A DNA stretch of 33,469 bases from an uncultured Bacteroidia bacterium (GTDB taxonomy: Bacteria > Bacteroidota > Bacteroidia > Bacteroidales > UBA932): contig CACYWN010000027.1 in the NCBI GenBank assembly GCA_902778105.1, positions 1 to 33,469 of the forward strand, written 5' to 3'. Both the position numbers and the translations under genes were made by a program. Shown piece by piece: positions 5,371 to 31,469 of the stretch; the stretch's first letter is position 1, and each line of letters opens with the position of its first letter. The notes beneath the pieces are model-generated. The model searched no databases, had not been told where the DNA came from, and saw only the letters and a program-made list of their open reading frames with translations.

Positions 5371-5387
5371 TATTTTCCGATGCAGAA
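5371..5387 (-). other. candidate attachment site (mnmE 3'-end-like), left copy
   Basis: The 17 bases TATTTTCCGATGCAGAA are identical to 31453-31469 and in the same orientation. On the minus strand they read TTC-TGC-ATC-GGA-AAA-TA, that is F-C-I-G-K-stop, the conserved C-terminus of MnmE, whose C-terminal cysteine motif is near-invariant. The 3' end of mnmE (thdF/trmE) is a known integration site for islands, for example SGI1 in thdF. No other mnmE coding sequence is present here, so this is the kind of short remnant an element carries after integration. Confidence 0.6.
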
Positions 5388-6021
5388 AAACACATACTTT
5401 CCAAGGGCTGTCGTGGGGTTTTTAATGGGGCATGATTGTCAATGAGTTACGCTTGTCGTTTGTCACAATTGTGACGGAATCGGCTTTTTTTGTGACAATC
5501 GTTGTGACAGAGTCGGGCCCAATCTCGAAGAGTCTTTATTGAGGACACTAAAATAATCGGGTAAAAGAGAAAAAAGGCCTGTTTTCAGACTCCCTGAGAC
5601 GTGTCAAGAATTTGTAACAAGTTTTACACGAGAAATGAGCGTCTCCAATCTTTAATCATTCCAGATACGAATTTGCGTTTTCATTGTTTTCTCGAGAAGA
5701 AAGGCTACTCATCAGTGTATGGAGATATGGTTGTATAGTCAGTTTGGTATATCTAATACATGACTGGCCTATACCGGCAGATAACCAGGACCCTCTTTTT
5801 TCTTCTACCAGAATATAGATAAGGACTTGCAATCGGCCTTAAGGAATCGCCAATTGCCTTTGTTGATACTGTTTCAAAGCTATGCAATAGCAGTGGCAAA
5901 ACCAATTTTCGGCCATTTTGCAAACTTCGAGAGATATAGTTTATAATCTTCGAAAATGCCCGTTATAAGTTTGACCGGCAATTTCAAAATCGGTTATTGC
6001 AATAACCTTTTTTATAGATAA
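5388..6021. other. gene-free stretch with repeats
   Basis: I see no convincing coding frame in this stretch. It holds a 14-bp perfect palindrome GTCACAATTGTGAC (5462-5475). It also holds two near-identical 13-mers, GTGACGGAATCGG (5471-5483) and GTGACAGAGTCGG (5504-5516), 33 bases apart, plus an extra GTGACAATCG at 5492. A short palindrome TTCTCGAGAA lies near 5690. The operator-like palindrome close to the next gene is listed separately. Confidence 0.5.
5992..6007. promoter_or_regulatory. candidate operator, 16-bp perfect palindrome
   Basis: GGTTATTGCAATAACC is a perfect 16-bp palindrome 15 bases upstream of the -33 element of the ATPase gene. An imperfect second copy, GGTTATTCTAATAAAC (6025-6040), abuts the -33 TTTG and fills the -33/-7 spacer. 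Two copies of one inverted repeat at a promoter suggest a repressor, possibly the ATPase protein itself, but the binder is unknown. Confidence 0.5.
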
Positions 6022-6053
6022 TTTGGTTATTCTAATAAACTTTTCTATTTTTG
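6022..6053 (+). promoter_or_regulatory. Bacteroidetes promoter for AAA ATPase gene
   Basis: TTTG (6022-6025), exactly 20 bases, then TATTTTTG (6046-6053): a full match to the Bacteroidetes -33/-7 promoter. The start codon at 6069 lies about 15 bases after the -7 box, so the leader is very short. The second inverted-repeat copy (6025-6040) overlaps the promoter. Confidence 0.75.
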
Positions 6054-6068
6054 CTCTGAATAAAGCAG

Positions 6069-7271
6069 ATGACCATGGAAACTCTTTTCAAGAAGCACCG
6101 CAAGTTGATTTCCCAGGTGAGCACGAATATCATCCGGGAAGCCATGAACACCATACCTTGGGAGAAACAGTTGGTTGCCATACGTGGTTCACGAGGTGTA
6201 GGCAAGACTACGCTGATGCGCCAGTATATCAAGTTGAACTATGGGATTCAGGCGGGGGAGGCCTTGTACTGCCTGATGGACAGTATGTACTTCACGAGTC
6301 ATTCATTGCTTGACCTGGCTGAGCGATTTCACTTGATGGGAGGGAAGCATCTGTTTCTTGATGAAGTACACAAGTATCCCAGTTGGAGCAAGGAGATAAA
6401 AGAGATCATTGACCTGTATCCTGAAATGAAAGTCACCTTCTCGGGATCTTCGCTACTTCAGATTCTGAATGCGGACGCGGACTTGTCCCGCCGCGTGCGA
6501 AGCCAGGATCTCGCGGGGCTATCTTTCAGGGAGTACCTCAGATTCTATCACGGCATTGAGCTTCCCGTCTTCAAGTTGGAGGAGATTCTATCCAACCCTG
6601 ATGCCATCTGTACCCGGGTTTGCGAAGCCTGTCATCCCCAGCCCTTATTCGAATCCTACCTTCGGGCGGGCTATTATCCCTTTTATGACGGGGACGTTGA
6701 AGATTACTACAGCAGGATTGAGAACGTTGTCAATTTTATCATTGACCAGGAGATGACGGATTTCTGTGGGGTGGACCCCGCTAACACCCGGAAGTTGAAG
6801 GCCATGTTGATGTTCCTGTGCGACAATGTCCCCTATGAAGTGAATATTGCCAAGCTGGCCTCCTACCTGGAACTGAACAAGGCGACCGTGCTTAGCTATC
6901 TGTCGGGCATGAAGAAGGCAGAACTCCTTCATCTTCTCTATTCGAGCAATGTCTCGGTGACAAAGATGCAGAAACCCGATAAGATTTATGTCCACAATCC
7001 CAACATCCTCTATGCATTGGGATCGAGGGAGAATATCGGTACCGTTAGAGAATGCTTCTTTGTGAACCAACTTTCGAAGGGCCATACCGTGGAGTACGGG
7101 AAAACCAGTGGAGATTTCCTTATCGACGGTCGTATCACGGTCGAAGTCGGCGGGAAGGATAAATCCTTCGAACAGATTGCTGATATTCCAGCCTCATATG
7201 TCTTTGCAGATGAGATGGAATTCCCTGTTGGAAAGAAACTTCCTCTCTGGCTGGCCGGTTTCCTCTATTGA
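6069..7271 (+). CDS. AAA+ ATPase with DUF4143 C-terminal domain
   Basis: This 400-residue protein belongs to the large AAA_14/DUF4143 family. Walker A is GSRGVGKTT (residues 40-48), Walker B is HLFLDEVH (about 94-101), and an FSGSS sensor-type motif follows. A winged-helix-like segment (about 270-300, AKLASYLELNKATVLSYLSG) comes next. The C-terminal DUF4143 region contains DFLIDGRITVEVGGK, which resembles a nuclease-like fold. These cytosolic ATPases are abundant in Bacteroidales and often occur as accessory genes; their function is not settled. The promoter is intact and flanked by palindromes. The last codons overlap, on the opposite strand, the tail of a GH3 relic, so the gene was probably joined to foreign DNA at its 3' end. 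ATG 6075 is an alternative start. Confidence 0.85.
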   Translation: MTMETLFKKHRKLISQVSTNIIREAMNTIPWEKQLVAIRGSRGVGKTTLMRQYIKLNYGIQAGEALYCLMDSMYFTSHSLLDLAERFHLMGGKHLFLDEVHKYPSWSKEIKEIIDLYPEMKVTFSGSSLLQILNADADLSRRVRSQDLAGLSFREYLRFYHGIELPVFKLEEILSNPDAICTRVCEACHPQPLFESYLRAGYYPFYDGDVEDYYSRIENVVNFIIDQEMTDFCGVDPANTRKLKAMLMFLCDNVPYEVNIAKLASYLELNKATVLSYLSGMKKAELLHLLYSSNVSVTKMQKPDKIYVHNPNILYALGSRENIGTVRECFFVNQLSKGHTVEYGKTSGDFLIDGRITVEVGGKDKSFEQIADIPASYVFADEMEFPVGKKLPLWLAGFLY

Positions 7272-7366
7272 ACACGTAGGTTTATTCCTTCCGTATCCCG
7301 GCTGTTCGGGCCAATCATGATCTCGAAATCGCCGGGCTCGCAGACCATATCCAGCCTGGGTGCTCC
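7265..7366 (-). pseudogene. GH3 glycosidase C-terminal scar
   Basis: The minus strand reads RLDMVCEPGDFEIMIGPNSR followed by DTEGINLRVQ and a TAG at 7265-7267. The pattern EPG-F-E-I-M-I-G-x-N-S-R-D is typical of the fibronectin-III-like C-terminal domain of GH3 beta-glucosidases and beta-xylosidases, and the stop falls where that family ends. Only about 30 residues remain; a TGA closes the frame upstream. It is the 3' stump of a deleted glycosidase gene and overlaps the end of the ATPase gene by seven bases. Confidence 0.55.
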
Positions 7367-7383
7367 TCAATGGGATCGTCGGG

Positions 7384-7707
7384 ATGCTTTATCTTTTCGG
7401 AATTCTGAAAGATGCAGACCTATTCATGGTCAGTGTCTTCTATTTCCTTTGCGACTATGTGTGCATCCTGATCTACTGTCCCTTCCAAAGCCATATCATG
7501 CACAACAAGTGCTGTGTAAACTGCCGGATTTACGGCTGGGGGGATTTTATGATGTTTACCCCCATGGTCTGTATCCGGCATTTTTTCAGCTGGACCCTGT
7601 TCTGGATGTCGGTGCTCGTACTGATCAGATGGGATTCAATAAAAATCAGCGAAAAAGTCTTCAGAAATGTCCCAGAGGGCGTTTCCGTCATAAAAAGAGA
7701 ATGCTAA
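7384..7707 (+). pseudogene. conserved cysteine-motif membrane protein, probably 5'-truncated
   Basis: The frame from ATG 7384 (GTG 7360 is also possible) encodes about 107 residues with hydrophobic segments. It contains the motif CPFQSHIMHNKCCVNCRIYG, then WGDFMMFTP and a second membrane segment SWTLFWMSVLVLIRW. I recognise this as a conserved, uncharacterised multi-pass membrane protein with a clustered-cysteine motif found in gut anaerobes. Family members have additional N-terminal membrane segments that are absent here. The frame fuses upstream to unrelated bases of the GH3 scar, so the 5' part was lost at the same junction. It may still be translated, but function is doubtful. Confidence 0.5.
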
Positions 7708-7746
7708 AATTGGGGTCTGTCCGATTTGTGTTTGATTTTGTCCGAA

Positions 7747-7783: not shown

Positions 7784-7817
7784 CAACACTTTGCAACCGA
7801 TCGCTATCCGCTCCGCC

Positions 7818-9782
7818 ATGAAAAGAATCCCCCTCCTGCTGCAGTCCACTGCATACCTCCTGTTCCTCGCCATCTCGGCGGCCGCCCAACATAAAACGTA
7901 TTTCGTCTCGCCGGACGGCGACGACGCCGCCACGGGCCTTTCCGTGGCCCAGGCGTGGAAAACCATCGACAAGGTGAATTCCGTGGTGTTCCAGCCCGGC
8001 GACAAGATCCTCTTCGAGTCCGGCAAGACCTTCTATGGCCAGCTGATGCCCAAGGGCTCCGGAACGGAAGAGGCGCCGGTCGTGATGTCCTCCTTCGGCG
8101 GTTCCGCCCGACCGGTCATCAACTTCGGAGACGCCGAGGGCGCCGGCATCCTCCTCGAGAATGTGGACCATTGGGAGGTCCTCGGATTGGAAGTCGTGTC
8201 CTGCGAGCCCTACAAGGTCGGCATCGGCCGCCAGGGCATCGTCGTCCGGATCAGCAAGCCGGGCGAGTCGAGGCACTTCGTCATCAAGGACAACTATATC
8301 CATGACGTGTGGGGACAGCTCGGCGGCAACGGCCGCTACCAGGGCTACAGCAGCTCCGCCATCCTCGTGCAGACGGCCCGGATGGCTGACGGCATGGACA
8401 TCACCGGCGAGGGCGAGGCCGTCGTGATCAACGACGTGCTCATCGAGGGCAACAAGATCGAACGCGTGGACAAGTGCGGCATCGTGTGCCGCGGGGCCCG
8501 CTACGACGTGGCAATCCGCCGCAACTGGATGGACAACATCGGCGGTGACGGCATCTTCGTCAACGGGCCGTACCGGGGCCTGATCGAGTACAACGAGATT
8601 CACCGTTCCTGCATGCGCTCCGGCGACCCGAACCTGCCCGGCGACGACGGCTGGTGGCCGCATGTGGCCGCCTGCTGGATCCAGAACACCGAGGAGACCG
8701 TCATGCAGTTCAACGAGGTCTACGACACCGGCCGCAACCTCCACAACGGAGACGGCTTCGCCTATGACTTTGACTTCAACTGCAAGCGGTGCATCGCCCA
8801 GTACAACTATTCCCAGAACAACTACGGCTTCATGCTCCTGATGTACAACATCTTCGAGAACGTGACCCGGTACAACATCTCCGAGAACGACCATACCCAC
8901 CTGGTGCAGATGCAGGGCCCGATCGAGGGCGATAGGAGCCTGGTCTACAACAATGTGTTCTACATCGACTACGGGATGGCCGACATCGACTATTTCCTCA
9001 CGCGCAAGCCCGAGGAGCTCGGTGCCAAGTTCTACAACAACATCTTCTACGCCACCGGACAGGGACGCTTCCGCAGCGTGTACACCTCCGGCGACACCGC
9101 CGTCCGCAAGTATGACGAGGAGATGAAGGCCGACCTCCCCGCCGGCTCCGTGTTCCTGCACAACTGCTACTTCGGCCCGTGGAAGAACGGTATTCCGGAC
9201 GATCCCGAGGCCCTCGTCACCGACCCGAAGTTCGTCGCCCCGGGCACCGGTGGGAAGGGTCTCGCCACTCTGGGCGGCTATGCCCTCCGGCCGGATTCCC
9301 CGTGCATCAACACGGGCATGTATGTCCCGAACAACGGCGGCCGCGATTTCTTCGGCCAACCCGTCTCGGACGGCCGTCCGGACTTCGGAGTCTTCGAATA
9401 TCTGGGCAGCGGCATCTTCTCCGACGGAAAGACCGAGGCCGAACAGGACGAACTGGCCCGCAAGGCTTCCGACATCGCCTGGGCGAAATGGATGTTCCCC
9501 AAATCCATCTCCTCGAACGATCCGTTTATGGCCGTGATCCGTCTCCGCGAACCGCTCGACGGCTCGATCAAGGGATCTCTCTCCTGGGTGAACCCGAAGA
9601 ATGGCAAGACCGTTGCCGTGGACCTCGCCAAGGCTAAGGACCGCCAGGTTTTCGAGCTCCCCGTCAAGACCGACAAGGGAACGCTCGAGGGCACCACTTT
9701 GAAGGTCACGCTCGACAACGGAGCCTTCTGCGAAGTCTTCGAGGTCCCCTTCCGTGAAAACCAGCCCCGCCGGCATCCTTGA
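7818..9782 (+). CDS. secreted right-handed parallel beta-helix protein (putative polysaccharide-active enzyme)
   Basis: This 654-residue protein begins with a signal peptide (about residues 1-24, ending AISAAAQ). TYFVSPDGDDAATG and W-K-T-I-D-K-V follow, the usual opening of secreted parallel beta-helix proteins. The middle part has repeated N-rich turns such as YNEIH, YNYSQNNYG and YNNIFY. The helix closes with D-S-P-C-I-N-T-G and DGRPDFGVFEY, a typical beta-helix end. A C-terminal domain of about 100 residues follows. This fold is used by polysaccharide lyases, GH28-type hydrolases and some esterases; I cannot assign a CAZy family or catalytic residues. ATG 7818 is chosen because it directly starts the signal peptide. 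It is the first gene of the plus-strand PUL group and probably acts in the periplasm or at the cell surface. Confidence 0.75.
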   Translation: MKRIPLLLQSTAYLLFLAISAAAQHKTYFVSPDGDDAATGLSVAQAWKTIDKVNSVVFQPGDKILFESGKTFYGQLMPKGSGTEEAPVVMSSFGGSARPVINFGDAEGAGILLENVDHWEVLGLEVVSCEPYKVGIGRQGIVVRISKPGESRHFVIKDNYIHDVWGQLGGNGRYQGYSSSAILVQTARMADGMDITGEGEAVVINDVLIEGNKIERVDKCGIVCRGARYDVAIRRNWMDNIGGDGIFVNGPYRGLIEYNEIHRSCMRSGDPNLPGDDGWWPHVAACWIQNTEETVMQFNEVYDTGRNLHNGDGFAYDFDFNCKRCIAQYNYSQNNYGFMLLMYNIFENVTRYNISENDHTHLVQMQGPIEGDRSLVYNNVFYIDYGMADIDYFLTRKPEELGAKFYNNIFYATGQGRFRSVYTSGDTAVRKYDEEMKADLPAGSVFLHNCYFGPWKNGIPDDPEALVTDPKFVAPGTGGKGLATLGGYALRPDSPCINTGMYVPNNGGRDFFGQPVSDGRPDFGVFEYLGSGIFSDGKTEAEQDELARKASDIAWAKWMFPKSISSNDPFMAVIRLREPLDGSIKGSLSWVNPKNGKTVAVDLAKAKDRQVFELPVKTDKGTLEGTTLKVTLDNGAFCEVFEVPFRENQPRRHP

Positions 9783-9819
9783 GCCCCCGGGACAAATAAG
9801 GATTGAGGAGGCTGTTCTT

Positions 9820-9918: not shown

Positions 9919-12298
<2,380 letters not shown>

Positions 12299-12334: not shown

Positions 12335-14749
12335 ATGTTGAAAAGAATCTTATCCATAGCTATCCTGGCGCTGGGGCTGGGCTTCACCCTATCCGCCCAA
12401 CCCCGCCAGATCACGAATTTTGATTCGGACTGGAAATTCAAACTGGGAGACCATGTGAACGCGCAAAGCGCCGGTTTCAACGACAAGGCCTGGCGCCTGC
12501 TCGATGTTCCGCACGACTGGAGCATCGAAGGCGAAATCAACGAGAACAATCCTGGCGGCGGCTCCATCGGCTACTTCCCGATGGGAATCGGCTGGTACCG
12601 CAAATCTTTCGACGTCCCCGGCTACAGCAAGGACAAGAAGTACACCGTCGAATTCGACGGCGTGTACATGAACAGCACGGTCTGGATCAACGGACACGAA
12701 GTGGGTACCTGGCCTTACGGCTATTCCAGTTTCTCCTATGATCTGACACCGTACCTGAAATCCAAGGGCAACGTCATCGCCGTGCGGGTGGACAACTCGC
12801 AGCAGCCCAACTCGCGCTGGTACAGCGGATCCGGCATTTACCGCCATGTCCGCCTGGTGGCAACAGGCAAGACATACTTCGAGAAATGGGGCGTGTTCAA
12901 CTACACGCAGGAAGTCCAGGACGGGAAAGCTGTCATCAAAATCGAATCCTCGGTCATCAACGACCTGAAGTCCCGGATGAACGGAACCGTCAAGCATGTG
13001 GTCCTGGACGCCGCCGGCAACGAGGTGGCGGAGAGCCACGTCGTGGTCGAAATCCTCGCGGGCACCAAGCATCCTGTCCACCAGACCCTGACCATCGACA
13101 ACCCGACCCTCTGGACCTTGGAGAAGCCGTACCTGTACACCCTGCGTTCCTATATCCTGGACGGTGACAAGGAACTGGACTGCGTGGACAACGTGCTGGG
13201 CGTGCGCACCATCGAGTACGATGTGGACAAGGGCTTCCTGCTGAACGGCAAGCACGTGAAGATGTACGGTGTCAATGTGCACCATGACGGTGGCGCCGTG
13301 GGCGCCGCGGTTCCCGCCCGTGTGTGGGAGCGCCGGCTCGAGATCTTCAAGAGCGGCGGCTGCAACGCCATCCGCACGGCTCACAACCCGCCGGATCCCA
13401 CCTTCCTAGACGCCTGCGACCGCGTGGGTATGCTCGTCATGGACGAGGCCTTCGACCAGTGGGTGACCCCCAAGAATACCTATGACTACAACCTCTATTT
13501 CCGCGACTGGCATGTTCAGGACCTCGCCGCCATGGTGGAGCGTGACCGCAACCATCCCTCGGTCGTGATGTGGAGCATCGGCAACGAGATCAAGGACCAA
13601 TACACGGAGTTCGGTCCCGAGTTCGCCCGGGAGATGATCGCCCAGTGCCACAAGATGGACCCGACCCGCCTGGTGACCGCCGGCAACGACGAGATCGCCT
13701 CCAACACCCCGGCCACTCCGGAATACCTGGCCGCCTACGAGAACGATATCGTGGGTTACAATTATCCGGACCGCTGGCGTGAACGGAGGGAACTCATGTA
13801 CTCCATCGACAAGGCCGAATTCCCGAACCGCCGAGTCGTCGCGACGGAATCCGGCGGCAACAGCGGCAGCCGCGGCAACTATCGTTGGGGTGGCGCCGGC
13901 CGCTTCGGCAGCGGTATCGGCAATATCGACACGGAACAGCGGTGGAAGTTCACGATCATCAACGACTACGTGATCGGCGATTTCATGTGGACCGGCATCG
14001 ACTACTACGGCGAGGCGAGATGGCCTTCCAAGGGCGCCGGGTCAGGATATCTGGACAACTGCGGTTTCAAGAAGGACGGCTACTGGTTCTTCAAGAGCAT
14101 CTGGACGGACGAGCCGGTGCTCCACCTGCTGCCCTACTGGAACTTCCCCGGCCACGAAGGTGAAATCATGCGCCTGGGCTGCTACACCAACTGCGAAAGC
14201 GTCGAGCTCTTTGTCAACGGCAAGTCCTACGGCAAGAAGGGCATCGAATTCCCGCGCCTGGGCCTGACCCTGGGCTGGGGTTTGGGCAACGGCCGCAATT
14301 ATCGCGGTACGACCTCCGAGCTCCATCTGGAGTGGGATGTCGAATACCAGCCAGGAGAAATCAAGGTCGTCGGGGTCAAGGACGGCAAAGAATACACCGA
14401 GGTGGTCCGCACCTTCGGCGATCCCGCCAAGATCCGTCTATCCGTCGACCGGTCGGAATTCACCACCGATCCGGACGACTGCGCCCACGTAACCGTCGAA
14501 ATCCTGGACAAGGATGGCAACCTATGCAAGGATGCCACCAACCGGGTCAAGCTCACCGTCAACGGCGCCGAAGTCATCGGCATGGAGAACGGCAACATGC
14601 GCGACCTCTCTTCCACGAAGACCTCCGAACGCGACACCTGGTGCGGCATGGCCCTGGCAATCCTCGCCGCTGACCACGCGGGAACCGTCTCCGTGAAGGC
14701 AGAGTCCGCTGGCTTGCAGGCCGGCGAGATTACTTTCAGAGCCAAATAA
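12335..14749 (+). CDS. GH2 beta-galactosidase-type glycosidase (first paralogue)
   Basis: This 804-residue secreted enzyme has a signal peptide of about 21 residues (ending TLSAQ). The GH2 sugar-binding domain includes DVPHDWSIEGE and GIGWYRKSF, followed by an Ig-like domain and the TIM barrel. The acid/base is E418 in WSIGNE and the nucleophile is E505 in VVATES. C-terminal Ig-like DUF4982 and DUF4981-type regions follow (LPYWNFPGHEG, VELFVNGKSYGKK). It has the length and layout of Bacteroidales exo-beta-galactosidases, which trim galactose from oligosaccharides in the periplasm. In a GH53 locus the expected substrate is beta-1,4-galacto-oligosaccharide. A colinear paralogue lies at 16465-18978. 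The next gene starts 12 bases later, in the same operon. Confidence 0.9.
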   Translation: MLKRILSIAILALGLGFTLSAQPRQITNFDSDWKFKLGDHVNAQSAGFNDKAWRLLDVPHDWSIEGEINENNPGGGSIGYFPMGIGWYRKSFDVPGYSKDKKYTVEFDGVYMNSTVWINGHEVGTWPYGYSSFSYDLTPYLKSKGNVIAVRVDNSQQPNSRWYSGSGIYRHVRLVATGKTYFEKWGVFNYTQEVQDGKAVIKIESSVINDLKSRMNGTVKHVVLDAAGNEVAESHVVVEILAGTKHPVHQTLTIDNPTLWTLEKPYLYTLRSYILDGDKELDCVDNVLGVRTIEYDVDKGFLLNGKHVKMYGVNVHHDGGAVGAAVPARVWERRLEIFKSGGCNAIRTAHNPPDPTFLDACDRVGMLVMDEAFDQWVTPKNTYDYNLYFRDWHVQDLAAMVERDRNHPSVVMWSIGNEIKDQYTEFGPEFAREMIAQCHKMDPTRLVTAGNDEIASNTPATPEYLAAYENDIVGYNYPDRWRERRELMYSIDKAEFPNRRVVATESGGNSGSRGNYRWGGAGRFGSGIGNIDTEQRWKFTIINDYVIGDFMWTGIDYYGEARWPSKGAGSGYLDNCGFKKDGYWFFKSIWTDEPVLHLLPYWNFPGHEGEIMRLGCYTNCESVELFVNGKSYGKKGIEFPRLGLTLGWGLGNGRNYRGTTSELHLEWDVEYQPGEIKVVGVKDGKEYTEVVRTFGDPAKIRLSVDRSEFTTDPDDCAHVTVEILDKDGNLCKDATNRVKLTVNGAEVIGMENGNMRDLSSTKTSERDTWCGMALAILAADHAGTVSVKAESAGLQAGEITFRAK

Positions 14750-14761
14750 ATCTATAGAGCC

Positions 14762-19029: not shown

Positions 19030-19090
19030 GCGGATAATGTTTCGAGAGGGTGACACAGAAAGGACAGATGATGACATATTTCCGCTTGAC

Positions 19091-19107: not shown

Positions 19108-19141
19108 AAATTGCGTATCTTCCAACAGCAATCCAAAAACG

Positions 19142-22953: not shown

Positions 22954-24069
22954 TTACTTCACGGCACTGATGGCGAGGTGCCAAGTGCAGTCCGCGGATT
23001 CGTAGTAGAACTTGAAGCGGTAGGTTCCGGGAGCGTCGATCTTGAAGTTGGCGTCGCCGCCCAGGACCTTTTTGGAAATGTCGTTATGGTAGATCTTGAT
23101 GTCCGATCCGTCACGCACGGTCAGGTCGGCGGCGCGCTTCGGGCCGAAGGTGAATCCCCAGTTGTCGTTGATGGACATGCGGAAGGTGCCGGAGGAATAG
23201 TCGGCGGTGCCGATCCAGGCGTTCTCTTCAGCATTGTACACCAGTTCGGGATTGCCGCCGAACCACCAGCCGCCCAGGCCGCAGAGGCGGACGGGGCCGT
23301 CCAGCTCGGTGATGGAATAGGTTCCGGTGTTCAGGTCGGCCCGCACATAGGCCAGCTGAGCCGGAGCCTCGATGGCGGCGCCGCCGACGGCCAGCGTGCC
23401 GCTGTTGTCACCCCAGGCGTTGCCTTCGTTCGTGCCGGCATAGGTGTACTCCAGGAAACGGACCTGATTGGATCCGGTGGACTTCATGTTCACCAGGCCC
23501 TGGTACTGCTTCCCACCGCTCTCCGTCTCCTCGATACCGTCGCGGTCCGGGTGGTTGTTGTTGAAGCTGCCCGAGACATAGAGCATGTTGATGCCCGTGC
23601 TGATACGTGCGATCTCGAATTTGAGAGTCACCGGTTCGGATTTCACCAGGTAATACCCGTCACCCATGGATGCCGTCACATAGCACGGCACATCGTGGAC
23701 GGAACCCTTGGCGAGGCCCAGGTTGCTTTCGCCGATCAGCTTGGCATAGAGTGTCTTGTAGTCGATGGAGTAACTGGTGGTGGTCACGCCGGACACCAGG
23801 CACATGTCCGGGTGGGTCTCGCTGGACATATAGATCGAATAGCTGACTTCGGTGGGAGCGCCGAAGTCCGCCTTGTCCCAGGAGAAGGTCACGACGGCGT
23901 TCGGGTCGTCATACTTCTTCTGCGAGACCTGGACGGTCGGCATGTCCTTCATCTTCGGAGAGACGAACTGGCTCTCCTGGGAAGTCTTGACAATTTCAAG
24001 TCCGTTGGGGTCGCAAGCCGCCAGCAGGATGGCGAATACCGGCAGCAAAGAATATCTGATTCGTTTCAT
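22954..24069 (-). CDS. SusE-like outer-membrane lipoprotein
   Basis: This 371-residue protein has a lipoprotein signal with lipobox LLAAC (Cys19). An N-terminal SusE-type Ig domain follows (VTFSWDKADFGAPTEVSYSI, then SIDYKTLYAKLIGE). Starch-binding-like beta-sandwich domains come next (LYVSGSFNNNHPD at about 170, CGLGGWWFGGNPELVY at about 280, ending YRFKFYYESADCTWHLAI). SusE/SusF-type proteins sit on the outer-membrane surface and bind glycan; they are not enzymes. ATG 24069 is used because it starts the signal peptide. The start lies 13 bases after the susD stop, so it is the last gene of the operon, followed by the hairpin at 22896-22929. The exact ligand is not visible; beta-1,4-galactan is inferred from GH53. 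Confidence 0.85.
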   Translation of the reverse strand: MKRIRYSLLPVFAILLAACDPNGLEIVKTSQESQFVSPKMKDMPTVQVSQKKYDDPNAVVTFSWDKADFGAPTEVSYSIYMSSETHPDMCLVSGVTTTSYSIDYKTLYAKLIGESNLGLAKGSVHDVPCYVTASMGDGYYLVKSEPVTLKFEIARISTGINMLYVSGSFNNNHPDRDGIEETESGGKQYQGLVNMKSTGSNQVRFLEYTYAGTNEGNAWGDNSGTLAVGGAAIEAPAQLAYVRADLNTGTYSITELDGPVRLCGLGGWWFGGNPELVYNAEENAWIGTADYSSGTFRMSINDNWGFTFGPKRAADLTVRDGSDIKIYHNDISKKVLGGDANFKIDAPGTYRFKFYYESADCTWHLAISAVK

Positions 24070-24082
24070 ACGTGTTTCTTTT

Positions 24083-25789
24083 TTAGTTGGCATAACCCGG
24101 TTTGTGGGAAAGGTTGCGGTTGGCCGTCAGCTCGGACTGCGGGAAGTCGAACACCAGCAGGTGCTGGGAGAATCCCTGTCCCTGGTAGCTGCCGCCCTTC
24201 CATCTCCAGAGGAAGTCTCCGGAATGGAACTGGTCCCAGCGGATCAGGTCGGAGCGCCGGAACGCCTCCCAGACAAGCTCCACGGCACGTTCGTTCTGGA
24301 CGTCCTCCAGCGTGCAGCTCGGCAGGGGGTCGACATGGGCGCGCTTGCGGATTTCATTCAGGTAGGGGAGGCCCTTGGCGGCCTGTCCGGCCATCACGCA
24401 GGCTTCGGCATAGTTGAGATAGATTTCGGCCAGGCGTATCACCGGATAGTCGATGCCGGCCTTTGCACTGGCGGAGCCGTAACTCTTGGCGGAGCTGGCG
24501 AATTCTTCGCGGGTCATGTCGTGCGGGATGTTGTTGAACTTGTAGAGGCTCCAACCCTGGGTGAATTCGGCCAGGTCGGTCATTTCTTCCTTGTGTCCCT
24601 TGATGTAGAACAATCCGGCACGGGCGTCCGTATAGTTATAGATACCGGTGTACTTGCCCTCGGCGTCATATCCTTCATCCGGAACGGTCACGCCGAAATA
24701 CTTGAAGACGTACTCGGAAGGGACGCGGATACCGGCCCAGCCGTCGGCGACACCCAGGCTGTACATCGGGTTGCCGTTCTCGTCCTTGTCGTCGGCGGCC
24801 TGGAAGCAGGATTGGGCCAGGAAGATTGTCCCGCCCCAGCCGTTCATGTTGATTTCGTCATAGTCGATGGCGAAGATCATTTCCTTCCGGGCTTCGGCAT
24901 TCTCTCCGTTGTCTCCGCGGAACAGGTCGGAGTACGTGTCGCAGAGTTCGTAGTTCAGCTTGAAGACTTCCTCGCAGGCGGCCATGCATTCCTCCCACAT
25001 CGCGGGACCCTTCTGCGTGACGTTGCCCTTGGCGTCCACGGTGTTCTTGTAAACCTGGGCATTCAGGTAGAGGCGGCTGAGCAGACCCCAGGCGGAACCT
25101 TTGTCCACCCGCGGATAGTTGGAACCGGCGGCCGGCATGTCGCTGCTGGCAACCAGGTCCTTCAGCTCGGACTCGATGAAGTCGAAGATCTCACCGCGGG
25201 ACTTCACTTCGGGAGAGGCGGAGCCGAATTCGGATTCCTCGGTCACGAACGGGCCGTCGCCGAAGGTGTCCATCGACATCCAGTACATGAAGGCGCGGAG
25301 GAAACGGGCCTCGGCGCGCAGTCCGTGGACCTTGGCGATCACGTCGGCGCTGCATCCGCGGGCATCCAGACGGTCATCCGTGGTCTGGCGGAGGAACTCG
25401 TTGGTGAAGGTGATGCCGTGCAGGGTACGGCAATAGAGCGCGTAGGAAGCGGCGTTGTCAGCCGTGGACCACGTATTCTTATTGATATCCTGGGTCCAGG
25501 AGTCCTTTTCCCAGTCGTTCTTGCAGGCGTCCGTGGAGCATTCCTGAACGCACCAGAAGGCGCGCATCAGCTCGGAGGCACCAGCGTCCTCGACCTGGAG
25601 GTCGGAGGTGTTGTTGAAGCAGCGGTAGATCTTGGCCAGGCCGGAAACATAGTTCGCATAGTCGCTTCCGTAAGCGTTCTCGGACGTGAAGTCATCCTCG
25701 TTGAAAGGATAGGCGTCCAGGTCGCGGACGCAGGAGGCTGCGAAGATGCCGGTCAGCAGAAGCAATGCAATATATAGGAACTTTTTCAT
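24083..25789 (-). CDS. SusD-like glycan-binding lipoprotein
   Basis: This 568-residue protein has a lipoprotein signal with Cys20 (GIFAASC). It shows typical RagB/SusD features: an N-terminal TPR-rich helical part (AEARFLRAFMYWMSMDTFGDGPFVTEE), PRVDKGSAWGLLSRLYLNAQVY, and the C-terminal block YPVIRLAEIYLNYAEA followed by LNEIRKRA and ERAVELVWEAFRRSDLIRW. It forms the lid of the SusC transporter and captures oligosaccharide at the cell surface. Start 25789 directly begins the signal peptide and lies 14 bases after the susC stop. It is the third gene of the GH53-susC-susD-susE operon. Confidence 0.95.
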   Translation of the reverse strand: MKKFLYIALLLLTGIFAASCVRDLDAYPFNEDDFTSENAYGSDYANYVSGLAKIYRCFNNTSDLQVEDAGASELMRAFWCVQECSTDACKNDWEKDSWTQDINKNTWSTADNAASYALYCRTLHGITFTNEFLRQTTDDRLDARGCSADVIAKVHGLRAEARFLRAFMYWMSMDTFGDGPFVTEESEFGSASPEVKSRGEIFDFIESELKDLVASSDMPAAGSNYPRVDKGSAWGLLSRLYLNAQVYKNTVDAKGNVTQKGPAMWEECMAACEEVFKLNYELCDTYSDLFRGDNGENAEARKEMIFAIDYDEINMNGWGGTIFLAQSCFQAADDKDENGNPMYSLGVADGWAGIRVPSEYVFKYFGVTVPDEGYDAEGKYTGIYNYTDARAGLFYIKGHKEEMTDLAEFTQGWSLYKFNNIPHDMTREEFASSAKSYGSASAKAGIDYPVIRLAEIYLNYAEACVMAGQAAKGLPYLNEIRKRAHVDPLPSCTLEDVQNERAVELVWEAFRRSDLIRWDQFHSGDFLWRWKGGSYQGQGFSQHLLVFDFPQSELTANRNLSHKPGYAN

Positions 25790-25803
25790 ATGCTTGGGCA
25801 TGA

Positions 25804-28800
25804 TTAGAAGTTAAGATTGACACGGAGGGTGTAGGCCCGGGAGCGGGGCGTGCCGCTGCCGTCGATGCCGTCCTGTCCGATTTCAGGATCGACACCGGGA
25901 TACTTGGTGATGAGTGCCAGGTTGTTGGCGGTGAAGGCGAGACGCAGGCGGGCGTTGCCGAAGACCTTCGGGAAGGTGTAGCCGACGTTCACGTCATCGA
26001 TCTTGAAGAAGGAGGCGTCATGCAGGAAGTAGTCCGAATAGCTCTGTGCGATCATGTTGGTGTTCGTCCATCCGGTCTTCTTGACGATGTTCCGGTAATT
26101 GTGCAGGGCGCTGTAGTTGATCCAGTCGTTGGCCACGGTGGAGTTGTTCTGGTGGTAGTTCCAGAAGGCCCAGTTGCCGGCGGAGCCGTGTGCGTTGAAG
26201 CCGAAGTCCCAGTTCTTGAAGGTGTACTTCAAGCGGAGGCCGTAGTAGAACGAAGGAAGCGGGCTCTTTCCGGTGAGGTAACGGTCGTTGTCCGTGATCA
26301 TTCCGTCGCCGTCGCGGTCCACGAAGGCGTTCTGGATCGGCTCGCCGTCGGCGTTGTAGGCCTGCTGATACAGGAAGAACGTCCGGGGGGCATAGCCTAC
26401 GCGATGCTGCTGGGAGTAACCGCCGGTACCGACGCCGATACCGCCCGTCTGGATATAGTAGTTTTCGTTGACGCTCTCGTCACCGACCGTCAGTTTCGTG
26501 AACTTCGTGTCCTGGAGGGTGAAGTTTGCGCCGATGCTCAGGCTGTGGATCCGGTTGCGGACCGGGTTGAAGTTGAGTCCGAGTTCGATACCCTTGTTGC
26601 TCATGCTGCCGATGTTGGTCAGGAGCTCGTTGGAGAAGTTGGCGCCCATCGGGATGAGAACGGTGTTCAGGAGGTCCTTCGTGTCCTTCTTATAGACATC
26701 GATGTTACCGGAAACCAGGTTCTTGCCGAACCCGAAGTCCAGACCGATGTTGGACGTGATGGTCTCTTCCCACTTGACATGCGGGTCATAGGCCCGGGGA
26801 GTGAGGTTGAAGGTGCGCCCGTCGGAACCCATATTGTACTTGTCCGTCGTGCCGGTGGAGAGATTGTAGTTGGCGATATAGGAATAGTTGGCGATGCCGC
26901 TCTCCTGGCCCGTGATACCCCAGCCGATGCGGAGCTTGAGTTCGTCCAGGTTCTTTGCGTTCTGCATGAAAGATTCTTCCTTGATGTTCCAGGCGAAGGC
27001 GGTGGAGGGGAACAGACCCCAGCGGTGCTCCGGCGCGAAACGGGAAGATCCGTCGTTACGCAGGGTGACGGTGAGCAGGTAACGGCTCTTGAAGGAATAG
27101 TTGAAACGGCCGTAGAACGACACGAGGAAATGCTCCTCACCGTGATTGTAGATGCTTCCGTAGAGGTCGTCCTTCTTCACGTTGATTCCTTTCGCCTCGT
27201 TGACGAAGTCGTCGTTGTAGTGCTGCTCGTTGTGGTTGAAATAATAGAAGTGCTCGTACGAGTAACCCGCCATCGCGTCGATGCGGTGTCCGTTGAAGTC
27301 GTGGTTGTAGTTGGCGAAGAACTCCAGCATGTCGTTCTTGTTGAAGCCGTCGCTGAGCGTGTAGAGACCGACCTTCGGGGCGACACCGTCGTTGATCAGG
27401 CCCCAATAGCCGGGCTTGCTGCGGCTCCAGTTGCTGTTCTTGCGGCGGTCCGTGCTTACGCGGAGGTTGAACTGCAGGTCTTCGAAGCCGTGGACCTTGT
27501 AGTTGATGATACTGCTCAGCGTCCAGCCCAGGTTGCGCGGTTTCTGGAGCGTGTTCTCGTACTGCATCGGATTCGTCGCGGCACCGGCGCCCGGGATGAG
27601 GTCGTCTCCGCGGCCCGTACCGACAATATAATAACCGTAGTTGGTATCATAGTCGATGGAACCGTCCGGGTTGGTGAAGTACACCGGGAGTGTCGGGTTG
27701 AAACCGGCGGCCGAGCTGTAGCTGGCGCTGCCCAGGTCGGAGATGGAGGTGTTGACCTTGGCGTTGAGGGTGATCTTTAGATGATCGTCCAGGAAGGTCG
27801 GCGTGAAGGTGGCGCTGAGGGTGGGGCGATGGCTCCAGGAACCGAGGGTCTGTCCCTGGCGCTGGAAGTAACCGAGAGAGACGCGGTAGGGCAGGTGGCC
27901 TTTGAAAGTCGTGCCGCTTATGCTCAGGTTGTGGGTCGATCTCTGGCCCATCTTGGTGACGAGGCTGATCCAGTCGGTATCGGCGTCGCCCATCAGGGCC
28001 TGTGCGGACTCCCAGGATCCGGGACGGTCGGCATACAGCTCCTTCATGAAGGCGCGGTACTCGGTGGCGCTCATCACATCCTCGCGGCCGATATAGTGGC
28101 TCGCGGTGACGGAACCGCTGTAGGAAACGCGCGGCTTGCTGCTGCCGCTGGGCTTCTTCGTCGTCACGAGGATAACGCCCGAAGCGGCACGGGACCCATA
28201 GATCGCGGCGGAGGAGGCGTCCTTCAGGACCGAGAAGGAGTCGATGTCGTCCGGGTTGATGGACGACAGGCTGTTGGAGCTGAGCGGAACGCCGTCCACC
28301 ACGATCAGCGGGTCGTTCGAGGCGTTCAGCGAGGAGATGCCGCGCATGCGCATGGTGCCGTCGGGCAGCACGAGCAGGCCGGAAACCTTGCCTTGGAGCA
28401 GTTCATGGCTGGAGGAAACGGCGCCGCGGTTGATTTCTTCGGCTTTGACCGCCGCCACGGAACCGGTCATGTCGTCCTTGCGGACCGTACCGTAACCGAT
28501 GACGACGACGTCTTCCAGTTGGATCTGGTCGTCGGTCAGGACGACGCGTCCGCGGGCGAATTCGGGATCGCCCGCCGCAAGTTTGCGGGTTTCGTAGCCG
28601 AGGCAGGAAATGGTCACCTCGGCATTACTCCCGGAAACGGTCAGGGTGAAGTTGCCGTCGACGTCTGTGGTGACACCTCGGTTGACCTTTCCTTCCTCGA
28701 ACAGGGCTGCGCCGATGATGGGCGTTCCACCAGCATCGACCACGACACCTTTGACGGTGCGCTGGCCACCCTGTGCATACATTGTTTGATTGCTGATGGC

Positions 28801-28842
28801 CAGCAATGCAAACGACAGGACTAGCAATAACAGTTTCTTCAT
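25804..28842 (-). CDS. SusC-like TonB-dependent transporter
   Basis: This 1012-residue outer-membrane transporter has a signal peptide ending in MYAQ. A CarboxypepD-regulatory-like domain follows (VKGVVVDAGGTPIIGA), then the SusC motif around LEDVVVIGYGTVRK. The plug domain includes LIVVDGVPL and SVLKDASSAAIYGSRAASGV. A long beta-barrel ends in the aromatic signature YTLRVNLNF. It imports oligosaccharides across the outer membrane using energy from TonB, with SusD as lid. ATG 28842 is chosen because the signal peptide begins there; the frame open to 28968 overlaps the GH53 gene. It starts 10 bases after the GH53 stop, so the two are co-transcribed. Confidence 0.95.
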   Translation of the reverse strand: MKKLLLLVLSFALLAISNQTMYAQGGQRTVKGVVVDAGGTPIIGAALFEEGKVNRGVTTDVDGNFTLTVSGSNAEVTISCLGYETRKLAAGDPEFARGRVVLTDDQIQLEDVVVIGYGTVRKDDMTGSVAAVKAEEINRGAVSSSHELLQGKVSGLLVLPDGTMRMRGISSLNASNDPLIVVDGVPLSSNSLSSINPDDIDSFSVLKDASSAAIYGSRAASGVILVTTKKPSGSSKPRVSYSGSVTASHYIGREDVMSATEYRAFMKELYADRPGSWESAQALMGDADTDWISLVTKMGQRSTHNLSISGTTFKGHLPYRVSLGYFQRQGQTLGSWSHRPTLSATFTPTFLDDHLKITLNAKVNTSISDLGSASYSSAAGFNPTLPVYFTNPDGSIDYDTNYGYYIVGTGRGDDLIPGAGAATNPMQYENTLQKPRNLGWTLSSIINYKVHGFEDLQFNLRVSTDRRKNSNWSRSKPGYWGLINDGVAPKVGLYTLSDGFNKNDMLEFFANYNHDFNGHRIDAMAGYSYEHFYYFNHNEQHYNDDFVNEAKGINVKKDDLYGSIYNHGEEHFLVSFYGRFNYSFKSRYLLTVTLRNDGSSRFAPEHRWGLFPSTAFAWNIKEESFMQNAKNLDELKLRIGWGITGQESGIANYSYIANYNLSTGTTDKYNMGSDGRTFNLTPRAYDPHVKWEETITSNIGLDFGFGKNLVSGNIDVYKKDTKDLLNTVLIPMGANFSNELLTNIGSMSNKGIELGLNFNPVRNRIHSLSIGANFTLQDTKFTKLTVGDESVNENYYIQTGGIGVGTGGYSQQHRVGYAPRTFFLYQQAYNADGEPIQNAFVDRDGDGMITDNDRYLTGKSPLPSFYYGLRLKYTFKNWDFGFNAHGSAGNWAFWNYHQNNSTVANDWINYSALHNYRNIVKKTGWTNTNMIAQSYSDYFLHDASFFKIDDVNVGYTFPKVFGNARLRLAFTANNLALITKYPGVDPEIGQDGIDGSGTPRSRAYTLRVNLNF

Positions 28843-28852
28843 ATCAGATAGA

Positions 28853-30823
28853 TTAATAGGATTGGTAAAATGCGTCGTAAATGTCCATCTCGGCCGTGGT
28901 GCGCCCTTCCTTGTCGAACAGGCCGCCCCACATCGGGCTGGTGGCCTCCCAGATGAACGTGCCGGCACCCAGGCCGCCCGGAATGTCCTTCACAATCTCG
29001 TTGACTTCCTTGCGGTAGTCCTGGTATTCCACCACGATGACCGGCTTGCCGTACCGCTTCGCGAGGTCGTTGCAGTTGAAAGTCAGCTGTTCCAGCGTTC
29101 CGTGGTGCTTGGGGTAATAGGACTGGCCGATCACGTCGAACTTGACGTCGCGGGCCAGCATCTTGTCGTAGAATTCGACGGATTTCTCGTTCTGGCCGCC
29201 GAGGGCGACATGGATCATGATAGGAATGGAGGGATCGACGGAACGGACGCCGGCGCTGGCGCAGCGGATCATGACGGCGAAGGATTCATATTTGCCGTCC
29301 TCGACCTTGCCCTGAGGCCAGACCATGCCGTTGTTGACCTCGTTGCCCACCTGGACCATGTCCGGGCGGACACCTTCCTGGATGAAGCGGCGGACCACTT
29401 CGGCGGAATAGGAATAGACCTGTCCCTCCAGGCCCGAACCCGTGCTGCGCGCCCAGGAGGCGGGCTTGAACTGCTTGCCGGGATCAGCCCAGGTGTCGCT
29501 GTAGTGGAAGTCGAGCAGGAACTTCATGCCGGCCGCCTTGATGCGGGCCGCCATGGCTAGGGTCTGCTCCAGACCGCAGAAGCCGTCCTTGGAATAGCCC
29601 TTTTCGGCCGTCGGATCGACGAACAGGCGCAGGCGGATCCAGTTGAAATGGTGGTCCTTGAGAATCTCCAGGACGTCTTTCTGCACACCCTTGTCGGAGA
29701 ACTTGATTCCCTGGGCCTCCTGCTGGGGCACCCAGGAGATATCCGCTCCGATGATGGGTTCGTCGAAGGTTGTCTGCGGCTTGTAGGGCGGGATGTAAAG
29801 CGGCTGCCTGGCCGGGTTGGAATACTGCTCCTTGATCTGCTCGTAGATGCCGAAGATCTGCCGGTCGGCCCTTCCTTCGCGCGGGAACAGGGTGCGGGTG
29901 GGGGCCCAGGCCATCGTTCCGTTGCCGAGTTTGCCCGGCGTGGCGCGGACGATGTCGTTGATGATCTTGATGTTGCCGGCGTTGGCGCCGTATTCGCAGA
30001 TGTTCACGGGCTTGCCGTAACGGGCGGTCAGGTCGTAGATGTTGGCCTTCATGTCGTTGTAGGTCTCGTGCCAGCGCTCGTAATAGGACAGGCCGATGAT
30101 GTCGAAGTCGGCTCCATATTTCACCATATGGTCGAGGAAGTCGCGGCAAAGGGTGTTCTCGCCGCCCAGGGCGAGGTGGATCTGCAGCTTCGCATCCGGA
30201 AGGACTTCATGGACGGCCCGCTGGCCAGCCTTGTAGAGCCCCATGCAGGCGGCCCAGTTCTCTTCGGTGGCATCGTCCATCACCTTTCCTTCGGGCCAGA
30301 CCATGCCGTGGCTGATCTCGTTGCCTACCTGCACGATTTCCGGGGCGGCCCCGGCCGCCTTGAAGGCCTTCAGGGTCTCCTTGGTGTACTTGTACAACTG
30401 GTCTTCCAGGGCCTTGCCTGTCAAACCTTCCCACTTGGACGGCTTGTACTGCTTGTCCGGGTCGGCCCAGGTGTCGCTGTAATGGAAGTTGAGGGCGAAC
30501 TTCATACCGGCCGCCTTGATGCGCTTGGCGAAGGCGATGGTGCTCTCGGTCCCGCAGAAGCCGTCACGGGAATAACCGTGCGGTGCTTCCGGGGTGACGA
30601 ACAGGCGGAGCCGGATCACGTTGAACCCATGGTCTGCCATGATCTGGAGCGGATCCTTCTCGGTTCCGTCCATGTCATAGAACTTGGAGCCCCGGGCTTC
30701 CATCGCCGGAATCTCGGACACATCGGCTCCGATACAGAAGTCGAGGTCCTGCTGGGCCGTGGCGCGGGGCCCGGTCAGGAAGCATGCCGTCGCGGCCAGG
30801 AGGAGAAGAAAGGTTTTTTTCAT
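28853..30823 (-). CDS. tandem double-domain GH53 endo-beta-1,4-galactanase
   Basis: This 656-residue secreted protein contains two complete GH53 domains in a row. Family GH53 cuts beta-1,4-galactan (type I arabinogalactan). Domain 1 (about 27-345) has acid/base E169 in VGNE and nucleophile E277 in ICEYGAN. Domain 2 (about 355-656) has E495 in VGNE and E599 in VVEYQD. Each domain has one N-I-R-L-R-L-F-V (or W-I-R-L-R-L-F-V) strand and one HYSDTWADP loop, so this is a real duplication. Domain 2 keeps the G-T-F-I-W-E motif; domain 1 reads GTMAWAP there, so its specificity may differ. The signal peptide ends near ATAQ, with no lipobox. It is first in the operon, and its start is fixed by the promoter at 30870. 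The usual family protein has a single domain of 330-400 residues. Confidence 0.9.
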   Translation of the reverse strand: MKKTFLLLLAATACFLTGPRATAQQDLDFCIGADVSEIPAMEARGSKFYDMDGTEKDPLQIMADHGFNVIRLRLFVTPEAPHGYSRDGFCGTESTIAFAKRIKAAGMKFALNFHYSDTWADPDKQYKPSKWEGLTGKALEDQLYKYTKETLKAFKAAGAAPEIVQVGNEISHGMVWPEGKVMDDATEENWAACMGLYKAGQRAVHEVLPDAKLQIHLALGGENTLCRDFLDHMVKYGADFDIIGLSYYERWHETYNDMKANIYDLTARYGKPVNICEYGANAGNIKIINDIVRATPGKLGNGTMAWAPTRTLFPREGRADRQIFGIYEQIKEQYSNPARQPLYIPPYKPQTTFDEPIIGADISWVPQQEAQGIKFSDKGVQKDVLEILKDHHFNWIRLRLFVDPTAEKGYSKDGFCGLEQTLAMAARIKAAGMKFLLDFHYSDTWADPGKQFKPASWARSTGSGLEGQVYSYSAEVVRRFIQEGVRPDMVQVGNEVNNGMVWPQGKVEDGKYESFAVMIRCASAGVRSVDPSIPIMIHVALGGQNEKSVEFYDKMLARDVKFDVIGQSYYPKHHGTLEQLTFNCNDLAKRYGKPVIVVEYQDYRKEVNEIVKDIPGGLGAGTFIWEATSPMWGGLFDKEGRTTAEMDIYDAFYQSY

Positions 30824-30869
30824 ATGATTATGGTATTTAAGTTAATATGCAACAATAAAGGGGCACACA

Positions 30870-30877
30870 CAAAAATA
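30870..30877 (-). promoter_or_regulatory. -7 box for GH53-susCDE operon
   Basis: Read on the minus strand, TATTTTTG is a perfect -7 element, 47 bases upstream of the GH53 ATG. A TTTG lies upstream but 26 bases away, longer than the normal 19-21. The imperfect spacing fits a promoter that needs the PUL regulator. Confidence 0.55.
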
Positions 30878-31191
30878 CCGAACCGGATATGGAATGCTTT
30901 TCACAAACCGGACGAATTCTGACACTCTTTTTCCATTTGTGGATTTGGAGGCCGGAACAAGCAAAAGGGCAGACAGAAACACCGTCTACCCTTCCAAAGT
31001 AACCATAATATTAACCAACCGGATGGAAAAACGCGTTTTTCTGCCTGTCACAGGTGAAAAAACCGCCTTTTATCACCGAATATAAAGATAGTCCATTTCC
31101 GGGGGACTCTTTGACACGGAATGGACAAATGCTGCCACTGATTAATGATTGTCCGCGGAACGGACGATTTCGTCGCCATCATGGGCTAGAG

Positions 31192-31299
31192 ATGAGTAAC
31201 CACCGTTATTCCATTAAAGCAGGTCTTGCCAGCTATGCGAACGCCTGGAGAGGACTGACTCGATTCGTCCGCCAGCAAAACAATGCCTGGATTGCGCTA
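31192..31299 (+). pseudogene. possible diacylglycerol/undecaprenol kinase N-terminal relic
   Basis: From ATG 31192 the frame reads YSIKAGLASYANAWRGLTRF followed by VRQQNNAWI. This matches the start of DgkA-type kinases, which open with a basic amphipathic helix and a G-hydrophobic-x-x-hydrophobic-hydrophobic-R-x-x-x-N-A-x-I pattern just before the first membrane helix. After about 35 residues the similarity ends and no membrane helices follow. It looks like the beheaded front of a dgkA gene left at a recombination point. A chance match is possible because the segment is short. Confidence 0.4.
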
Positions 31300-31348
31300 T
31301 CGTCAAGGGATTCAAGACCTGCGGAGGCAGCCTGGATAAGGGCACTTG

Positions 31349-31435
31349 CATCTCGTCCTCAGGAATGCCTTACTTTGAGGACGAGATGGTCATTTTACCC
31401 GCTTCGTCCTCAGAATAGGGCTTAAATGAGGATGA
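31349..31435. repeat. double hairpin built on one motif (TCGTCCTCA / TGAGGACGA)
   Basis: CATCTCGTCCTCA (31349-31361) pairs perfectly with TGAGGACGAGATG (31376-31388), a 13-bp stem with a 14-base loop. The same core recurs as TCGTCCTCA (31404-31412), facing TGAGGATGA (31427-31435), which differs at one base. The four half-sites alternate in orientation and end 18 bases before the att-like copy. Confidence 0.7.
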
Positions 31436-31452
31436 AAACGGTCCCGGAAGGC

Positions 31453-31469
31453 TATTTTCCGATGCAGAA
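31453..31469 (-). other. candidate attachment site (mnmE 3'-end-like), right copy
   Basis: These 17 bases are identical to 5371-5387 and in the same orientation. On the minus strand this copy reads K-F-C-I-G-K-stop (TAG), the MnmE C-terminus. The bases on either side differ from the left copy. No intact mnmE gene adjoins it in this window. Confidence 0.6.

Follow-up and report, generated by a model that had tools for sequence, protein, structure and literature searches.

How might a PUL that has no integrase of its own come to lie between two identical copies of the 3′ end of mnmE? The question is raised by a window of 33,469 nucleotides (the whole stretch of DNA analysed here, which is contig C27 of its assembly in full), in which the first-pass annotation had proposed an acquired island, or stacked islands, at mnmE. 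The 17-bp direct repeats on which that proposal was built are exactly as described: TATTTTCCGATGCAGAA occurs at 5371–5387 (left putative attachment core) and 31453–31469 (right core), both copies reading as + with no mismatches, and string matching together with flank comparison identified both as copies of the mnmE end that spell F-C-I-G-K-stop on the minus strand. A search allowing up to three mismatches returned the same two window sites and no more (0.09 expected from shuffles), and the exact 17-mer is confined to these two positions in the whole assembly (2.66 Mb in 48 contigs, 84.2% complete), the reversed-pattern control giving none; the repeat is thus not frequent across the genome, a frequency that had been named as evidence against an island. 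Within the genus, known here from metagenome bins, a 15-bp core is present in seven of the 101 genomes compared, the source genome being one of the seven; four of the other six (G004, G013, G049, G066) have it as the 3′ end of their intact mnmE, and in G036 and G039 it lies away from the mnmE end. Both window cores are mnmE 3′ ends, and they presumably function as attachment sites.

The MnmE family search of the assembly gave a match on contig C11 alone (C11:142–1554, minus strand). This mnmE ends in ...H-C-I-G-K, its third codon positions differing from those of the window cores, and past its 3′ end are TTGAACC-type arms, the same type as those to the right of the 31453 core. This is the intact gene that was to be sought; its stop lies 141 bp from the C11 edge. 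Since no assembled join connects these two separate contigs, we infer the location of C27 at its own mnmE in the source cell. The mnmE hotspot may itself account for contig breaks; of the 75 genus genomes in which MnmE was matched, 15 have a full-length match that ends at most 160 bp from a contig start, by a hand count of minus-strand rows. Another core-like match in the source genome, the fourth (C1:115452), has CCA at the stop position and was taken as chance.

The region downstream of mnmE in this genus holds att-like repeats, arm arrays and tyrosine integrases, and an integrase adjoins mnmE in G013 (369 aa), G072 (379 aa) and G395. One G395 contig carries tandem cores after mnmE (at 9654, 39674, 56874 and 70529), and G016 and G013 likewise have an intact mnmE with further cores downstream, which bears out the idea of stacked islands; in all three genomes the gene end is restored and a copy stands at the far side, as in the site use of Salmonella genomic island 1 (SGI1). 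No relaxase was found among the ten proteins scanned from the first G395 element. The empty site for which a comparison with relatives had been suggested also exists, the left flank of the window running straight into an intact mnmE in G045, G229, G251 and G339. Furthermore, several matches are one-sided and end at or near cores, as site-specific exchange predicts: G126 is identical to the window at 338 of 345 positions to the right of 31452 and at 53 of 200 to the left, G121 at 112 of 120 to the right of 5370 and at 35 of 120 to the left, and C11 agrees with G072 at 155 of 157 positions up to the core, mnmE diverging beyond. The match between G013 and G395 (98.5%) starts 87 bp inside mnmE, not precisely at the core. 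Tandem cores, empty site and one-sided breakpoints show an integration hotspot downstream of mnmE in the genus. Of 30 loci, a regular-expression tally could locate the mnmE end in 29; ten of these ends have arms at most 330 bp away, and eight of the 29 have less than 170 bp before the contig edge.

On one contig (G033:C22), both kinds of unit end meet at a single core. Reading this contig as a circle was abandoned, its ends having no exact overlap, as was the assignment of SusC/SusD to it, where Pfam gave GH38, GH97 and a fucosidase instead. CAZyme genes adjoin cores in G033 and G064. A phage origin of the hotspot integrase was not supported, as no close relative came up (best identity 49.9% among phage records; best segment 53% among viral contigs).

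The ATPase gene, gene scars and PUL reported from the interval between the window cores were all confirmed. Beside the left core, the PUL unit has its far end (5388–5520), which carries TTGTCACAATTGTGAC and TTGTGACAATCGTTGTGACA arm-like repeats and recurs in relatives, adjoining a core in G121, G003, G069, G033 and others. It is followed by an AAA_14 ATPase (6069–7271, plus strand; Pfam, with DUF4143 below the cut-off) that matches the PADLOC candidate defence family PDC-S01 and for which a pattern search of viral contigs gave nothing, by a scar consisting of the last codons of a GH3 gene (7272–7346, minus strand) that is complete in G069, and by a hydrophobic ORF fragment (7360–7707, plus strand) that matches nothing in Pfam and that we read as a gene scar. 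At the opposite end, sequence comparison revealed a conserved terminus (31348–31452) that touches the right core; five other genomes have it next to a core as well, at six places in all. On its PUL side the right core has neither arms nor an inverted repeat, so that excision of the unit by itself may not work; the two ends of the interval are unlike, with arm-like repeats on the PUL side at the left core only. In G069 the unit has a 4.6-kb relative that lacks the PUL and has the order core-arms-ATPase-GH3-core; compared with this relative, the window has 24 kb, including the PUL, in place of most of GH3. The PUL looks like cargo that displaced most of GH3 in an older core-ATPase-GH3 unit.

Assigned by Pfam except where noted, the PUL comprises, on the plus strand, a right-handed beta-helix protein (7791–9782; profile match), two putative esterases (9919–11118 and 11138–12298), a GH2 (12335–14749), a carboxylesterase family protein (14762–16405) and a hybrid two-component regulator with propeller repeats, kinase, receiver and AraC-type HTH (19037–22876), and, on the minus strand, a second GH2 (16465–18978), a SusE-like protein (22954–24093), a SusD family protein (24083–25801), a SusC-like TonB-dependent receptor (25804–28968) and an endo-galactanase with two GH53 domains (28853–30823). 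As the listed SusC-like ORF overlaps the GH53 gene, its true start is probably further in. The locus has the SusC/SusD pair, glycoside hydrolases and sensor regulator that define a PUL, and the GH53 and GH2 domains point to beta-1,4-galactan as its probable substrate. Its G+C content is 60.1%, compared with 43.8–50.3% for other parts of the window, and no plasmid in PLSDB matched its DNA in near mode. GH53 relatives with 79–91% identity are on contig stretches without any core; they do not amount to the contrary evidence that had been named, which calls for related genomes with the PUL at this very place and no repeats.

To the left of the unit, profile matches identify a 5′-truncated N-acetylmuramoyl-L-alanine amidase (434–838, plus strand; profile positions 67–174 of 174), an HNH protein (859–1986, plus strand) and two DNA methyltransferase-like genes (1990–3120 and 3123–4706, minus strand) of a left element, which also has an HTH_17/excisionase-like protein (4750–5202, minus strand; both matches below cut-off). 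To the right, sequence comparison places the end of a neighbouring element at 31470–31530, where a AACTAATTGATAATCAATT repeat is accompanied by two arm-like repeats of GGTTCAAAT (TTGAACC); the repeats to the right of the 31453 core are this neighbour's and not the PUL unit's, and its arms resemble those at the source genome's own mnmE and at the integrase-bearing G072 and G013 elements. The neighbour's cargo includes a metallo-beta-lactamase-fold and rubredoxin protein (31912–32853, minus strand; profile match) and a ferritin-like protein (33082–33462, minus strand; Pfam).

A Pfam scan of 20 window ORFs found no integrase and no relaxase, and the PF00589 search of the assembly gave no match on C27, its four matches being on C2, C4 and C21 (two); this agrees with the absence of an integrase noted earlier. 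The segment is bounded by two identical mnmE-end cores at which the matches of relatives break, as attL and attR bound a CIME, and C27 is likewise without integrase or transfer genes. We therefore think it likely that the segment is an integrase-less, att-bounded, CIME-like passenger in an accretion array at mnmE. On this model, the tyrosine recombinase of an incoming element would cross over inside the last mnmE codons, restoring C-I-G-K-stop and leaving a further copy of the 3′ end at the element's far side, and repeated insertion beside mnmE would push older elements outward. The window would then cover three members of the array in succession. Rightmost would be the far end of an element with TTGAACC arms, next to it the ATPase unit, its GH3 gene largely swapped for the galactan PUL, and leftmost the start of the HTH/methyltransferase/amidase element. 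As the unit with the PUL has no integrase, it would be expected to move only by way of a neighbour's, which would act on the unit's cores and carry it alone or in a composite; both this mobility and the identity of the acting enzyme are deduced from the arrangement of cores and arms. No integrase matching the TTGAACC elements was found in the unit's own assembly, which is 84% complete, and the predicted circle junction had no match in viral contigs, a poor place to look.

About 27.8 kb of the window recur at 99.7% identity (99.69% over 27.4 kb) in a second species (G232), in which mnmE is merely 86% and rho 90% identical; this bears out the claim that the PUL was acquired, and may reflect recent transfer between the two species or mis-binning. 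The common stretch crosses the right core unbroken. The G232 copy has no left core, its contig beginning 96 bp beyond window position 5670, and no match to window 99–5590 was found in G232. The 5670 breakpoint was dropped as another left boundary and reads more like the edge of an insertion sequence, given that those 96 bp are 78% like the start of G232:C38 and have 27 exact bases in common with G365; no transposase was identified there. Mis-binning of C27 (or of G232:C32), which would make the two-species identity an artefact and leave the att structure real, seems distinctly unlikely: both genomes are metagenome bins, and 99.7% over 27.8 kb stands against 86–90% in two chromosomal genes, but the first 98 bp of C27 equal the last 98 bp of its own C12, the G232 copy of which differs (97%), and window 99–5590 had no match in G232. 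These last two points weigh little, because graph nodes are shared among the contigs of a metagenome.

It is also rather unlikely that the stack is real and the PUL unit fixed, its cores being dead scars and the G232 identity a product of homologous recombination of the flanks. The integrase-free contig, the armless right end and the uninterrupted passage of the G232 stretch through the right core would all suit such a unit; matches of relatives nevertheless end at these very cores, and integrase-bearing elements use other cores in the genus. That the segment is instead a once-complete integrative element minus its integrase, and not an ATPase-GH3 unit that received a PUL, we consider unlikely. 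The usual explanation of CIMEs is that they are decayed elements (PMC5704250), and the segment does contain gene scars, that of GH3 among them, but the PUL-free G069 relative, which agrees with the unit in left end, ATPase and GH3, has no integrase and no room for one. A chance repeat, the 17-mers being unconnected with mobility, is extremely improbable: taken alone, a 17-bp repeat somewhere within 33 kb would not be very unusual, and PUL relatives occur elsewhere without cores, but the exact mnmE frame, the restriction to two genome copies, the arms and inverted repeats beside the cores, and the independent one-sided matches ending at both cores contradict it, and on these half-site data it was rejected.

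A passenger in an accretion array would give a PUL without a mobility gene a concrete way of passing between species, and one that can be tested. The comparison also marks mnmE as an integration hotspot of a Bacteroidales genus. Such units have none of the genes usually used to detect mobile elements, so PUL mobility may be undercounted. A broader reading, which we hold only tentatively and at somewhat less than even chances, is that the mnmE 3′ end serves the whole genus as an exchange hub, where units bounded by cores and lacking an integrase are interchangeable cargo slots that swap carbohydrate genes (GH3, the galactan PUL and perhaps the CAZymes of G033 and G064) and defence-like genes and are carried across species by neighbours' integrases; PULs would then spread with no need to carry mobility genes themselves.

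In the open-licence literature we found no paper stating that mnmE/trmE/thdF is a hotspot in Bacteroidales; papers on PULs and mobile elements there were general, and none concerned the mnmE site. SGI1 integrates at the 3′ end of trmE/thdF, which is mnmE, and its tandem integration has been reported (PMC8409611, PMC2297512); unlike the PUL unit, it has its own integrase and resistance genes, and it belongs to Gammaproteobacteria. Mobile elements of gut bacteria have been reported to carry 47 SusC/SusD-bearing PULs, with two ICEs inserted in tandem (PMC6907783); the elements described in that study are of kinds such as ICEs, IMEs and prophages, whereas the window unit encodes no mobility gene. 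The Dehalococcoides islands at ssrA (PMC3146451) are similar in being tandem islands split by direct repeats of a gene 3′ end, some of them, as here, without an integration module and carrying niche metabolism genes, although they involve a serine recombinase and a tmRNA site where we find tyrosine recombinases and a protein gene. Compared with accretion-formed CIMEs as presented in PMC5704250, the window differs in its site (Bacteroidales mnmE), its PUL cargo, its one end without recognisable arms and a mobilisation that is predicted; like them, it is att-bounded and free of integration and transfer genes, and it probably shares a gene end with integrase-bearing elements arranged in tandem.

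The 17-bp sequence proposed as a direct repeat is exact at both 5371-5387 and 31453-31469, reads F-C-I-G-K-stop on the minus strand, and has no other exact copy in the 2.66-Mb assembly; allowing up to three mismatches revealed no further copy in the window (0.09 expected). The assignment of these repeats (hereafter cores) to the mnmE 3' end, made in the first-pass annotation, also held: a 15-bp core, present in 7 of 101 genomes of the genus (own genome included), forms the 3' end of intact mnmE in four genomes (G004, G013, G049 and G066) and lies away from the gene end in two (G036 and G039). Read along mnmE, the cores displayed retain codons for C-I-G-K-stop while third positions and the stop codon vary; this conservation is built into the core search pattern and is thus no independent proof, and one residue is changed at two sites located via their flanks, in G003 (F) and G069 (R). 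A degenerate core was detected in 198 of 300 genomes, with at least two cores in 67 (hand count). A reversed-pattern control gave 11 matches in total across the 300 genomes, and part of the degenerate-core matches, including one in the own genome, is due to chance.

The intact own mnmE, expected elsewhere in the assembly, was located on contig C11 (142-1554, minus strand). It ends in HCIGK, with third positions differing from those of the window cores, and 141 bp separate its stop from the contig edge; beyond the gene lie two GGTTCAAAT repeats resembling those right of the 31453 core. Up to the core, 155 of 157 positions at this contig end are shared with G072; past the core, the two mnmE genes diverge. 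The window is exactly contig C27, and its positions 1-98 are identical to the final 98 bp of own contig C12, with near copies in G232, G340 and G133; contigs run into a shared repeat at this point. In the left element of the window, an HNH protein (859-1986), whose gene adjoins two methyltransferase genes, has its top PADLOC and NCBIfam matches in the HNH section of Cas9 models; each of these is weak and scores well under the cut-off.

The predicted empty site was found in related genomes: the 35-55 bp running up to and through the 5371 core corresponds to the end of intact mnmE plus the sequence just after it in G045, G229, G251 and G339 (flank identity 81-93%), with an amidase region (92%) about 170 bp beyond this flank in G229 and an HTH region (93%) about 0.9 kb beyond it in G045. 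At both window cores, similarity to relatives breaks off on one side: in ungapped comparisons, the window agrees with G121 from 5370 at 112/120 positions rightwards and 35/120 leftwards, and with G126 from 31452 at 338/345 rightwards and 53/200 leftwards. The 105-bp stretch immediately left of the core at 31453 recurs next to a core six times in five other genomes, in two of these as a partial copy; G307 keeps both flanks of the 5371 core (74%).

In this genus the region downstream of mnmE serves as an integration hotspot with tandem cores. Among 20 stretches examined, 19 contain mnmE, and downstream of it many carry a ACTAATTGATAATCAAT-type repeat and several kinds of arm-like arrays, followed by ORFs; this pattern was not seen after mnmE in G044, G054, G094 and G057. 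A tyrosine integrase (Phage_integrase, SAM-like and arm-binding domains) lies downstream of mnmE in G013 and G072, an integrase motif alone in G038, and an integrase matching PHROGs integrase families in G395. A single G395 contig has its mnmE core at 9654 and more cores at 39674, 56874 and 70529. Its first element is 98.5% identical to that of G013 over 14.7 kb, upstream regions being only 72-74% alike; the match starts 87 bp within mnmE instead of at the core, and similarity drops to 69-82% in the distal portion of the element. The far core of G013 lies 29 kb downstream.

The first G395 element past mnmE (contig C6; L225:9801-20000 and L226) encodes the integrase, a DUF3987/primase protein, two DNA methyltransferases, a Piwi-domain protein and a restriction-endonuclease-like protein, a cargo that by its predicted products is defence-like. 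At the start of a G033 contig (C22; L169:416-18622), a core joining both kinds of unit end precedes GH38, GH97 and alpha-L-fucosidase genes; a second core was not found on that contig. Three mnmE-end cores lie within 1 kb beside mnmE in G028 (C44:753-1724), perhaps as very small units or bare scars. In G017, G030, G033 and G046 a second, partial match to the MnmE C-terminus lies elsewhere, suggesting either fragmented genes or longer duplications of the gene end at far att sites.

Window positions 5371-7346 are 94% identical to the first part of a 4.6-kb G069 unit, in which a full-length GH3 gene and an altered second core come next. The identity ends at 7346, within the GH3 3' end; the window proceeds to a hydrophobic fragment, the galactan polysaccharide utilization locus (PUL) and the 105-bp terminus described above (31348-31452). 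The second G069 core has no such terminus next to it, so the right ends of the two units differ. The G+C content of the PUL is 60.1%, against 43.8-50.3% in the rest of the window and 49.3-56.0% in sampled own contigs. Its GH53 gene (28853-30823) has relatives of 79-91% identity in G015, G259, G251, G177, G065, G225 and G036. No core occurs in the stretches fetched around these relatives, nor in those of G370, G331 and G201 (for G065 and G331, 40 kb of much longer contigs), and the PUL is therefore not tied to mnmE. The GH53 protein is a single chain with two GH53 domains; other public relatives include Selenomonas loci (43-47%) and two Lentisphaeria-labelled contigs (69-72%), which hints at cross-phylum transfer or mislabelled bins.

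A GH53 gene of 100% identity lies on CACZKE010000032.1 (MAG RUG12703), taken as contig C32 of G232. This contig is 99.69% identical to window 5670-33096 and 100% identical to 33093-33469, with a 40-bp difference in length where the two matches meet; mnmE and rho of the two genomes are only 86% and 90% identical, respectively. The right core and the adjoining neighbour fall within the shared stretch, whereas the G232 contig ends before the left core is reached. Set beside the divergence of mnmE and rho, such near-identity fits a recent transfer of a composite, though it may stem from mis-binning. In the proposed mechanism, integrases of neighbouring elements would recombine mnmE-end cores, incoming elements would insert directly beside mnmE, and integrase-less units would ride along; that the cores work in the own cell, which integrase helps them and how the contigs are ordered are inferred.

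PULs on gut mobile elements are already known (PMC6907783); in open-licence papers we found neither mnmE as a Bacteroidales hotspot nor an integrase-less PUL unit at mnmE. The window cores share their host gene end with SGI1 (PMC8409611), the arrangement follows the logic of accretion and cis-mobilizable elements (CIMEs; PMC5704250), and the closest layout is that of the Dehalococcoides ssrA islands (PMC3146451).
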